Positions 15,483 through 63,702 of a stretch of DNA of 64,000 nt are shown piece after piece. The position numbers and the translations under genes are program-made. The notes below the pieces were generated by a model. It ran no database searches and was not told where the DNA came from. It was given only the letters and a program-made list of their open reading frames with translations. Positions within the stretch are counted from its first letter, which is position 1, and every line of letters begins with the position of its first letter. The stretch comes from Paraphotobacterium marinum. Lineage in GTDB: Bacteria > Pseudomonadota > Gammaproteobacteria > Enterobacterales > Vibrionaceae. The DNA is taken from NCBI RefSeq assembly GCF_002216855.1, contig NZ_CP022355.1, forward strand, positions 1,158,695 through 1,222,694. The letters run 5' to 3'.

Positions 15483-15538
15483 TTGAGTAGCTTAAAATTA
15501 AAAAATATGCAGTTATTAAAATAAAAATGAGATTAAAG

Positions 15539-16219
15539 ATGAATAATTTAATAGTTCCTGTAATAACTATAGATGGTCCAAGTGGAGCGGGAAAGGGTAC
15601 AGTAAGTCAAATACTCTCAGAAAAATTAGGTTGGAATTTATTAGATTCAGGCTCACTATATAGAATTGTAGCATATGCCATTTTAAAGAATCACATTAAT
15701 CTAGATGATCAGGTTTGTATTGAACAATTAATCAAATCTATTGATATAACCTATAATGTAACTGAATCATCTACGGAAGTTTTGTTAGATGATAAAAATA
15801 TTACAAATTACTTAAGGGATGAAAAGATAGGTGAAACTGCGTCTGTTATTGCTGCAAATGAGATTGTTCGAGGATATTTAATTCAGAAACAAAAAGATTT
15901 CGCAAAGCCTCCGGGCTTAATTGCTGATGGTAGAGATATGGGAACTGTTATTTTTCCTAATGCTTTATTAAAGATATTTCTTGATGCTTCACCTGAAGAA
16001 AGAGCAAGAAGAAGAACTAAACAATTGCAAGATAAGGGTTTAGATGTTAATATTGATGAAATTTTAGCTAATATAATAGATAGGGATCAAAGAGATCGTA
16101 ATAGAAGCATATCTCCGTTAGTTCCAGCAGATAATGCAATTGTAATAGATTCCACTAATTTGTCTATAAATGATGTTGTTAGCTATATCTTAGAGTCTTA
16201 TGCTCTATTAAGAAAATAA
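15539..16219 (+). CDS. cmk: Cytidylate kinase
   Basis: Phosphorylates CMP and dCMP with ATP, recycling nucleotides. The product is 226 residues from the second ATG (E. coli 227). The P-loop GPSGAGKGT follows VITIDG near the N-terminus. The NMP-binding region and the LID arginines (SPEERARRRTKQL) near residue 153 are intact, and the C-terminal DRDQRDRNRSISPL motif is conserved. The frame also allows an ATG four codons upstream at 15527, which aligns less well. It lies upstream of rpsA as in most gammaproteobacteria. Confidence 0.95.
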   Translation: MNNLIVPVITIDGPSGAGKGTVSQILSEKLGWNLLDSGSLYRIVAYAILKNHINLDDQVCIEQLIKSIDITYNVTESSTEVLLDDKNITNYLRDEKIGETASVIAANEIVRGYLIQKQKDFAKPPGLIADGRDMGTVIFPNALLKIFLDASPEERARRRTKQLQDKGLDVNIDEILANIIDRDQRDRNRSISPLVPADNAIVIDSTNLSINDVVSYILESYALLRK

Positions 16220-16313
16220 ATTTACTATTAATTTCAAGGACCGAAATTAATTACTTTAACAGCCCCATGTGGTAGGAAACTACGTGGATGTTTATAAAAT
16301 GAAGATAAAATAC
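16220..16313 (+). promoter_or_regulatory. rpsA leader with two GGA-loop hairpins (S1 autoregulation element)
   Basis: The leader between cmk and rpsA folds into two clear hairpins. The first, 16227-16251, has a 9-bp stem ATTAATTTC/GAAATTAAT around loop AAGGACC. The second, 16265-16287, has a 9-bp stem CCATGTGGT/ACTACGTGG with two G-U pairs around loop AGGAA. Both expose GGA in the apical loop, and no canonical Shine-Dalgarno precedes the ATG, only a weak GAAG. This is the architecture described for gammaproteobacterial rpsA leaders, where excess S1 represses its own translation. The structure is read by eye and not computed. Confidence 0.8.
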
Positions 16314-17987
16314 ATGACAGAATCTTTTGCTCAACTTTTTGAAGAATCACTTAAAGAAATTGAAACACGTCCAGGAACAATTGTTAAGGGCACTGTAGTT
16401 GCTATTGATAATGGTTACGTTCTGGTTGATGCCGGTCTTAAATCTGAATCAGCTATCCCAGCAGAACAATTTAAAAATGCATCAGGCGATCTTGAAATTG
16501 AAATTGGTACTGAAGTAGACGTTGCTTTAGATGCGATTGAAGATGGATTTGGTGAAACTCAGTTATCACGTGAAAAAGCCAAACGCCATGAAGCTTGGAT
16601 TGTTTTAGAAAATGCTTATGAAAAAGCAGAAACTATTCTTGGTATTATTAATGGTAAAGTTAAGGGTGGATTTACGGTTGAACTAAATGGTATAAGAGCA
16701 TTTTTACCTGGTTCTTTAGTAGATGTTAGACCTGTTAGAGAGACTCTACATCTAGAAAATAAAGAACTTGAATTCAAAGTAATAAAACTTGACCAGAAAC
16801 GTAATAATGTAGTTGTATCACGTCGTGCAGTCATTGAATCAGAAAATAGTGTTGAAAGAGATGAGTTACTAGCTTCTTTACAAGAAGGTATGGAAGTTAA
16901 AGGTATTATTAAAAATTTAACTGACTACGGTGCTTTTGTTGATTTAGGCGGTGTTGACGGGTTATTGCATATAACTGATATGGCTTGGAAAAGAGTGAAA
17001 CACCCAAGTGAAATAGTTAATGTTGGTGATGAAGTTAAGGTCAAAGTTTTAAAATTTGATCGTGATAGAACTCGTGTATCTCTGGGATTAAAGCAATTAG
17101 GTGAAGATCCTTGGATTGCAATTGCTAAAAGATATCCTGAAGGTAAACGTTTGTCTGGAAGAGTAACTAACTTAACTGATTATGGTTGTTTCGTTGAAAT
17201 TGAAGAAGGTGTGGAAGGTTTAGTGCATGTTTCTGAAATGGATTGGACAAATAAGAACATTCATCCGTCTAAAGTAGTAAATGTTGGCGATGAAGCTGAA
17301 GTTATGGTTTTAGAAATAGATGAAGAAAGAAGACGAATTAGCCTAGGTCTGAAACAATGTAAAGCAAACCCTTGGCAACAATTTGCTGATGCACAGGAAA
17401 AAGGCGATAAAGTTACTGGAAAGATTAAATCAATTACAGATTTTGGTATTTTCATCGGCTTAGAAGGTGGTATTGATGGCTTAGTGCATTTATCTGATAT
17501 TTCATGGAATGTCGCTGGAGAAGATGCAGTAAGAGACTTTAAGAAAGGTGATGAAATATCTGCTGTAGTGCTTGCAGTAGATGCTGAAAGAGAAAGAATT
17601 TCTTTAGGGATTAAGCAAATTGAAGAAGACCCTTTTAATCAATGGACAGCTGACAATAAGAAAGGTGCAGTGGTTAAAGGTAAAGTAATTGAAGTTGATA
17701 CTAAAGGTGCAACTGTATCTTTGGATAATGGTGTTGAAGGTTACATTAGAGCATCTGAAGCATCTAGAGATCGTGTCGAGGACGCTACTTTAGTTCTTGC
17801 GACTGGTGACGAAGTAGAAGCTAAATTTACTGGTGTAGATCGTAAGAATAGAGTTATACACCTTTCAATTAAAGCAAAAGACGCTGCTGAAGAGCAGGAA
17901 GCTATGGCTAGTGTTAATAGTAAAAAAGATGATCAGAATTTTACTAATGCAATGGCTGATGCTTTCAAAGCAGCGAAAAGTGAGTAA
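16314..17987 (+). CDS. rpsA: 30S ribosomal protein S1
   Basis: RNA-binding ribosomal protein that brings mRNA to the 30S subunit, especially where Shine-Dalgarno pairing is weak. The product is 557 residues, the same as E. coli, beginning [13 protein letters not shown] and containing six S1 (OB-fold) repeats. The repeats with the [10 protein letters not shown]-like signature recur near residues 200, 285, 372 and 459. The frame is open 15 codons further upstream, but that segment covers the regulatory leader. Codon use looks more regular than its neighbours, as expected for a highly expressed gene. Confidence 0.97.
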
Positions 17988-62483: not shown

Positions 62484-63635
62484 TTATCTCTCTATTAAGG
62501 ATATTTTTTTATTATAGATATTCATAATGACTGATGTGAGTAAGCTTAGAGTTAAATAAACGCCCATAGTCATAAAAATAATTTCAATAGCCTGACCTGT
62601 TTGATTTAAGGTTGTTCCTGCAAAAACAGATACTAAATCAGGGTAACCAATTGCCATAGCTAATGATGAATTTTTTGTAAGGTTTAAATACTGACTTGTT
62701 AAGGGAGGGATAATTACTCTTAGAGCTTGTGGAATTATAATTAATTTTAAAATCTTGTTTTTTTTAAGACCAATTGAGTAAGCTGCTTCCCACTGACCAA
62801 GACTTATTGAAGTAATACCTGATCTCACGATTTCGGCAATAAATGAAGCTGTGTACAATGAAAGTGCAATTAAAAGTGCTGTTAGTTCAGGTAGTAAACT
62901 GATACCCCCAGAGAAATTAAACCCTTTGAGAATTGGTTTAGTAACGTTGATATCTATGTTAAAGGTGAAGATAGAAATTAAAGGTATACAGATCAAAATA
63001 AAGAGTGAAATTAATAATGCAGGTACTTCTTTTCCAGTTTTATTTTTATAATAATGTACATATTTATACCAAATGAAAATTAAAATGAAGCTAATAAATA
63101 TACTAAATAATAAAACTTGGTATCCATTTATTATATCTAAAGATGGCAGATAAAGTCCCCTTACGTTCAAGAATACAGACTCTCCAACATTAAAGCTATT
63201 TCTCGGAGAGGGGAGCGTTTGTAAAACAGCAAAATACCAAAAAAAAATTTGAAGCAGTAAAGGGACGTTACGAAATATCTCTATGTAACATGTTGCTAAT
63301 TTTTTTAGTAACCAATTATTAGACATTTTGGTAATACCAATCAGAAAACCCAGTATTGTTGCAAAAAATATTCCTAAGATTGACACTAATACAGTATTCA
63401 ACAAACCTACTAAAAAGGTATCGCCATATGTATTATTTTCCGAATAGTCAATTAATGACTGCGATATGCCAAAACCAGATTTTTCAGATAAGAAATCAAA
63501 ACCAGTTGTAATTCCTCTTGAGGATAAATTAGAAAATGTATTATTTAAAATGTAATAAAAAAAATAACAAATAATAATTACACAAATTATTTGAAAAAAT
63601 ATAGCCCTTGCTTTTTGATTGTAGATTAATTTCAC
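62484..63635 (-). CDS. aapQ: General L-amino-acid ABC transporter permease AapQ
   Basis: Partner permease to AapM, 383 residues. It has an N-terminal membrane helix, then GLLNTVLVSILGIFFATILGFLIG near residue 75, a large loop typical of AapQ (SPRNSFNVGESVFLNVRGLYLPS), and the EAA loop SLGQWEAAYSIGL near residue 283. KNSSLAMAIGYPDLV near residue 325 is characteristic. It forms the membrane channel with AapM. A clear AAGGAGG-type site precedes the start. Confidence 0.94.
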   Translation of the reverse strand: MKLIYNQKARAIFFQIICVIIICYFFYYILNNTFSNLSSRGITTGFDFLSEKSGFGISQSLIDYSENNTYGDTFLVGLLNTVLVSILGIFFATILGFLIGITKMSNNWLLKKLATCYIEIFRNVPLLLQIFFWYFAVLQTLPSPRNSFNVGESVFLNVRGLYLPSLDIINGYQVLLFSIFISFILIFIWYKYVHYYKNKTGKEVPALLISLFILICIPLISIFTFNIDINVTKPILKGFNFSGGISLLPELTALLIALSLYTASFIAEIVRSGITSISLGQWEAAYSIGLKKNKILKLIIIPQALRVIIPPLTSQYLNLTKNSSLAMAIGYPDLVSVFAGTTLNQTGQAIEIIFMTMGVYLTLSLLTSVIMNIYNKKISLIER

Positions 63636-63702
63636 TTTTCCTCCTTAAAAGTAAAAATTAAAAAGGATGATTTAATATCATCACTTTTTAATAAAATTTT
63701 TA

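Follow-up and report, generated by a model that had tools for sequence, protein, structure and literature searches.

The 94-nt leader that separates the end of cmk (16219) from the start of rpsA (16314) very probably governs translation of rpsA, like the homologous leader of E. coli and its relatives, on which S1 acts to repress its own synthesis; repression by S1 in the present organism is extrapolated from E. coli. On the basis of its fold, homology, covariation, place and the six-stretch S1 that it precedes, we assign it to the known class of gamma-proteobacterial rpsA leaders. The window, meaning the whole stretch of DNA analysed, comprises 64 kb of a 2.59-Mb Vibrionaceae genome (label G000, three contigs). 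A sequence-only reading of this DNA had described two nine-pair hairpins with GGA in their loops, the second containing G-U pairs, and this observation was confirmed. Hairpin I (16227-16251, + strand) consists of eight A-U pairs and one C-G pair, with no G-U pair, and its loop AAGGACC places GGA at 16238-16240. Hairpin II (16265-16287, + strand) includes two G-U pairs among its nine and has the loop AGGAA, with GGA at 16275-16277. Between them lies an AU-rich stretch (16252-16264, + strand) that is a probable S1 contact, a role assigned after a review of S1 (PMC10931766). A short outer helix on the same strand, in which 16261-16263 pair with 16290-16292, encloses hairpin II (16261-16292), and a further AU-rich stretch (16288-16313, + strand) leads to the rpsA start.

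That start had also been said to lack a canonical Shine-Dalgarno sequence, which proved correct. Its place is taken by the weak start element GAAGAT (16301-16306), invariant in 36/36 Vibrionaceae leaders and present in E. coli K-12 as well. The upstream neighbour cmk (15527-16219, + strand) encodes cytidylate kinase, and rpsA (16314-17987, + strand) encodes ribosomal protein bS1 of 557 aa; a Pfam scan of this protein found six S1 stretches, that is, a full-length S1 including D6. The order cmk then rpsA is common to the window and E. coli K-12. A promoter scan of the + strand gave a single promoter-like match, within cmk (15741-15770), and matches were no more numerous than in shuffled sequence. 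An in-frame ATG (16299-16301) lies 15 nt 5' of the conserved rpsA start, overlaps GAAGAT and would add MKIKY to S1. Neither this ATG nor an in-frame GTG at 16269 is favoured as the rpsA start, because the spacing from GAAGAT to the start differs between relatives.

Homology was assessed with 36 distinct Vibrionaceae leaders including that of the window, four duplicates having been dropped from 40. RNAalifold predicted both hairpins unaided from the 35 relatives alone. A covariance model built on those 35 leaders scored the window leader at 70.7 bits (E 2.1e-12 in a search of its whole genome), and the next match in the same genome reached 23.4 bits (E 0.23). Covariation with other rpsA leaders, which the sequence-only reading had proposed as a check, was evident among the 36 sequences: nine pairs had changed on both sides (shuffle mean 4.2), as had 53 cells (shuffle mean 14.3), and the covariation score was 0.260 (shuffle mean 0.162), with 0/500 shuffles as high for each of these measures. 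The number of further pair types was 24 against a shuffle mean of 21.3, and 23/500 shuffles were as high. The named structure paired 92.6% of cells; when partners were slid by 1-3 columns, 29-45% were paired. Most of the covariation is carried by hairpin I, where both sides had changed in seven of the nine pairs and 84% of cells were paired, the innermost pair forming in only 6/36 Vibrionaceae. Stem I of the window differed from that of each of the 35 relatives by three to five fully compensated pairs. Hairpin II together with the outer helix (helix 2) showed changes on both sides in two of 12 pairs; six of the 12 never vary and three vary on one side only, which is weak evidence for pairing. 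The three pairs of the outer helix form in 36/36 sequences and hardly vary, and therefore say little.

That the two hairpins of the leader arose by chance in AT-rich DNA we consider practically impossible. The + strand of the window contains 79 perfect hairpins with at least nine pairs and a loop of 4-9 nt; GGA stands in the loop of three, and two of the three are hairpins I and II. When the 94-nt leader was shuffled 20,000 times with its dinucleotides preserved, one or more GGA hairpins of this kind arose in 119 cases and two separate ones in no case. Folding energies agreed with the two-hairpin finding more weakly than these counts: z was -2.23 for the leader (6/200 shuffles equally good), -3.40 for hairpin I and -2.39 for hairpin II. 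For a 131-nt stretch that includes the first rpsA codons z was only -1.46 (19/200 shuffles equally good), the one value that speaks for chance; against it stand the shuffle counts, the homology and the covariation, and the homology search had already refuted the idea. The single-sequence fold of the 131-nt stretch of the window also contained a weak hairpin at the first rpsA codons. In the model for E. coli rpsA mRNA, ribosomes enter at a non-contiguous site made up of three hairpins, the third of which lies close to the start codon. It is likewise very improbable that hairpin II acts as a transcription terminator or attenuator. A terminator scan did list it (one found, 0.3 expected), but its tail has at most three T in a row, and two or three at that place in aligned relatives, so this candidate was rejected for want of a real T run.

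The sequence-only reading held that the hairpins had been retained while the surrounding sequence drifted to AT. The drift is real: GC at rpsA third positions was 0.164 in the window against 0.315-0.48 in 32 relatives, and locus GC was 0.317 against 0.411-0.495. The stem of hairpin I was not spared, however, and has itself turned A-U, with one G-C pair where relatives have two to five, so that stem I is almost all A-U in comparison with the rpsA region of E. coli and other gamma-proteobacteria. Hairpin I of the window is the weakest of the 36 (-4.5 kcal/mol, median -8.0), whereas hairpin II is the most stable (-10.5 kcal/mol). The base that is bulged in hairpin II of the 35 aligned relatives forms a U-A pair in the window, hence the nine pairs, and hairpin II there has neither bulge nor mismatch; E. 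coli has a C/A mismatch (by eye). Outside the family, the 1.0-Mb genome G096 (locus L166) has, by eye, a similarly closed hairpin II with the same loop. Survival of the element at extreme AT content is not unique to the window: an Arsenophonus symbiont locus (L084) with 20% GC also keeps both hairpins, its stem I having one G-C pair in 11. Across 86 leaders the share of G-C pairs in stem I tracked locus GC (rho 0.44, p 2e-5); a lengthening of stem I in AT-rich genomes was not supported in the same 86 leaders (rho -0.15, p 0.16). The window shows a known RNA control element that kept pace with the A/T drift of its genome through changes on both sides of its pairs, in support of the element being in use in this lineage of the Vibrionaceae.

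We also examined the element beyond the family. A search at the level of the order with the Vibrionaceae model gave a match at E 0.1 or better in 87/295 genomes. The position of RpsA was compared with the 64 matches outside the Vibrionaceae, the 23 in-family matches being left aside, and 63 of them lay at the rpsA start, the exception being G255. The 208 genomes with no match are not all devoid of the element, since the model was built on one family and the filters were stricter; the leaders of four of them (G037, G041, G048 and G056) show it by eye. Minimum free energy folds of 140 leaders had at least two GGA loops in 74, one in 39 and none in 27, and 15 of the last group came from Pseudomonas, Marinobacter or Hahella, genera that contributed 17 leaders. 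For a broad alignment, 25 of 141 leaders were set aside (these 17 and eight judged unalignable by eye) and the remaining 116 were thinned to 80 by similarity. MAFFT recovered only hairpin II from these 80 and did not bring hairpin I into register. The Rfam families of ribosomal protein leaders resemble the present element as cis-acting leaders of ribosomal protein genes, but in Rfam 15 no family reached its gathering score anywhere in the window. A loose Rfam search of 16150-16400 returned three matches overlapping the leader, far below gathering and from unrelated families, and the same search at the loci of four relatives gave no match in the leader.

A 2024 review (PMC10931766) reports that in several gamma-proteobacterial families bS1 specifically represses its own mRNA, by way of conserved sequence and structural features of the rpsA initiation region. 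The review describes this region as having no canonical Shine-Dalgarno sequence, the introduction of which abolishes control, and free and ribosome-bound S1 as competing for it; domain D6 appears indispensable. In the window, the two hairpins and their flanking AU-rich strands would together serve as a site of ribosome entry that needs no Shine-Dalgarno sequence; once S1 exceeds ribosomes, the free protein would occupy those strands and so keep the 30S subunit off the rpsA leader. Both the occurrence of S1 repression in this organism and its mechanism are inferred from E. coli. The leader of the window resembles the rpsA region of E. coli and other gamma-proteobacteria in that it follows cmk, contains two GGA-loop hairpins as well as AU-rich stretches, has a weak GAAGAT in the absence of a canonical Shine-Dalgarno sequence, and precedes the gene for a six-domain S1. 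The sequence-only reading had called the hairpins the structural signature of S1 autoregulation. This stands insofar as the rpsA leader is conserved and covaries, and as the review backs bS1 autoregulation through the rpsA initiation region, which has no canonical Shine-Dalgarno sequence. What we question is the GGA loop as the mark of S1, because the review credits preferential S1 binding, most likely, to cooperative contacts with AU-rich single strands (PMC10931766), and because A(N)GGA, the CsrA motif, stands in loop I and GGA hairpins of the rpsA leader go with csrA in reduced genomes. The association with csrA suggests that S1 may not be the sole reader of the GGA loops.

Two readings of the GGA loops were weighed. 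One, after the non-contiguous entry-site model, takes them as a split Shine-Dalgarno sequence, both loops touching the 3' end of 16S rRNA and docking the ribosome; we regard this as rather doubtful. It accords with the missing canonical Shine-Dalgarno sequence, with most leaders of relatives having GGA in each of the two loops (at least two GGA loops in 74/140 and one in 39/140 of the folds above), and with GGA in loop II, which shows no A(N) bias and fits this reading at least as well as it fits CsrA. Some loops, AUGGAUG or ACGGAUG, are nevertheless poor extended matches to the anti-Shine-Dalgarno sequence, GGA of loop II is replaced by UGA in several Enterobacterales and Colwellia leaders (by eye), and a split Shine-Dalgarno sequence does not predict retention with csrA. 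The other reading, compatible with S1 control and put forward tentatively, at a little short of even chances, is that hairpin I is in addition a candidate CsrA site: a CsrA dimer would grip A(N)GGA in loop I, perhaps reaching loop II 37 nt on, and tune S1 synthesis. CsrA prefers GGA in hairpin loops, with the consensus RUACARGGAUGU or ANGGAN, and bridges sites 10-63 nt apart, as reported in PMC7652899. The window loop AAGGACC is A(N)GGA in a hairpin loop, the two GGA loops of the window are 37 nt apart, and the genome (G000) has csrA as a 64-aa ORF. With the place of loop I defined as GGA at -92 to -68 on a stem of at least seven pairs, 140 leaders gave 90 distinct loops; in 88 of these GGA was preceded by A at -1 or -2 (48.7 expected from composition), and in 76 by A at -2. 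The corresponding figure for loop II was 36/59 with 31.0 expected, and the CsrA motif is therefore shown by loop I only.

Compared with known CsrA/RsmA sites such as the CsrB repeats and the glgC leader, the window thus shares ANGGA in loop I, a second GGA loop 37 nt on and csrA in the genome, but differs in its longer stems, in having no GGA over the start site of rpsA, and in a loop II that is not biased to A(N)GGA across relatives. The nine-pair stems exceed most SELEX hairpins. Two genomes of 1.0-1.2 Mb that have csrA (G096 and G184; loci L166 and L167) also argue against CsrA, as by eye loop I reads UGA in place of GGA on a stem that persists, and loop II still has GGA. The main texts of an E. 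coli CLIP-seq study (PMC5694010) and of Salmonella work on the CsrA transcriptome do not name rpsA, and main-text passages of the literature naming both contained no report of CsrA binding to the rpsA leader, a statement about those passages and not about print at large. RpsA was among the proteins altered in a Campylobacter csrA mutant, according to one study. All five Buchnera strains of another study have csrA, and the antagonists CsrB and CsrC seem absent there (PMC3571970).

The CsrA reading was examined further in reduced genomes. Symbiont-like genomes with csrA had mostly kept a GGA-loop hairpin in the rpsA leader, including some of only 0.3 Mb and some whose stems are almost entirely A-U, and lineages that lost csrA had lost it; this is a correlation only. 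In family f19 (Enterobacteriaceae by inference), csrA was found in 376/392 genomes and was absent from 16. A first batch comprised 39 rpsA leaders from reduced genomes of one family, scored for a GGA-loop hairpin with at least seven unbroken pairs (strict rule). The CsrA idea preceded this batch, and the stem threshold was set after its leaders had been viewed. Under the strict rule 19/31 leaders with csrA and 0/8 without had the hairpin (p 0.003), with 1.5 expected in all from shuffles. The set was then enlarged to 89 leaders, and a permissive rule allowing one mismatch or bulge, written after the first batch, was added; the strict rule misses stems that are interrupted, as in G365. Among the 75 genomes of at most 0.9 Mb, the permissive rule found the hairpin in 44/60 with csrA and 1/15 without (p 3e-6), where shuffles gave expectations of 8.0 and 0.7; genomes with no csrA thus sit at background. 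The strict rule gave 30/60 and 0/15 (p 2e-4).

The two batches agreed under the permissive rule at all sizes: 24/31 with csrA against 1/8 without in the first, and 32/42 against 1/8 in the second. Restricted to genomes of at most 0.9 Mb, the second batch alone gave 20/29 against 1/8 (p 0.012), and under the strict rule 11/29 against 0/8, which, at p 0.08, tempers the CsrA reading along with the rules having been set after the first batch. Between 0.5 and 0.8 Mb the hairpin was present in 36/46 genomes with csrA and 0/9 without. Counted by genus, with G365 and G673 left out, the figures were 23/33 and 0/9 (p 2e-4). At all sizes the 16 genomes with no csrA scored 0/16 by the strict rule and 2/16 by the permissive rule; the two are G365, which is 87% complete, and G673, a draft of about 100 contigs whose four congeners have csrA. 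In G442, which has no csrA, GGA is still found in both places and the stems look decayed (by eye). Seven reduced genomes with csrA have no GGA at all in the leader, and GGA lay upstream of -60, the place of loop I, in only 28 of the 44 best hairpins and downstream in 16; both observations count against CsrA. In four genomes of a 0.3-Mb genus (G416, G519, G589 and G648), rpsA is otherwise recognisable but has five or six in-frame TGA codons, which suggests that TGA may be read as tryptophan there.

Leader features and one other gene were compared in the same way. The weak start element GAAG was not lost with csrA, being present in 13/60 genomes of at most 0.9 Mb with csrA and 6/15 without (p 0.19). 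Among trinucleotides, GGA differed most between leaders with and without csrA (p 0.0002); AGG (p 0.015) and GAT (p 0.013) also differed, though less, which weakens the CsrA reading somewhat. The only other gene set against hairpin retention was hfq. Genomes with no csrA are not poorer in this second RNA regulator: at sizes of at most 0.9 Mb, hfq was found in 10/15 without csrA and 11/60 with it (p 5e-4, kinship not corrected). The GGA hairpin was present in 7/21 genomes with hfq and 38/54 without, the direction opposite to that for csrA. Within the genomes bearing hfq it was present in 7/11 with csrA and 0/10 without, and within those with no hfq in 37/49 and 1/5. As a separate observation, at genome sizes of at most 0.9 Mb the presence of either csrA or hfq seems to go with the absence of the other.

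To take account of kinship, a careful tree of 43 RpsA proteins was used, in which each csrA loss was paired with the nearest free csrA-bearing row, a pairing of our own devising. On this tree csrA changes eight times. The commonest outcome of the pairing, in 216 of 500 draws, was eight agreeing pairs and no opposing pair, and opposing pairs appeared in 0/500, in favour of the CsrA reading; against it, support is low in many forks of the tree and two rows are very long. A branch test on a quick tree had only two usable pairs. The wider point is that the GGA-loop hairpin of the rpsA leader is co-retained with csrA. We propose, with reserve and at less than an even chance, that loop I is an old candidate CsrA site in Enterobacterales and their relatives and that S1 synthesis is set by both CsrA and S1 itself; if so, control of S1 would help to explain why shrunken genomes keep csrA. 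There would then be a direct link between a global regulator and the ribosome's mRNA-binding protein, and the question of what CsrA does in endosymbionts would become testable in E. coli K-12.

Elsewhere in the window, a ten-pair hairpin of A-U and G-U pairs with AAGGAGG in its loop was observed on the - strand at 63630-63656. It lies at the start of an ORF (62484-63635) that is amino-acid ABC permease-like, a label given by eye, and its loop may hold a Shine-Dalgarno sequence or a CsrA-type site.
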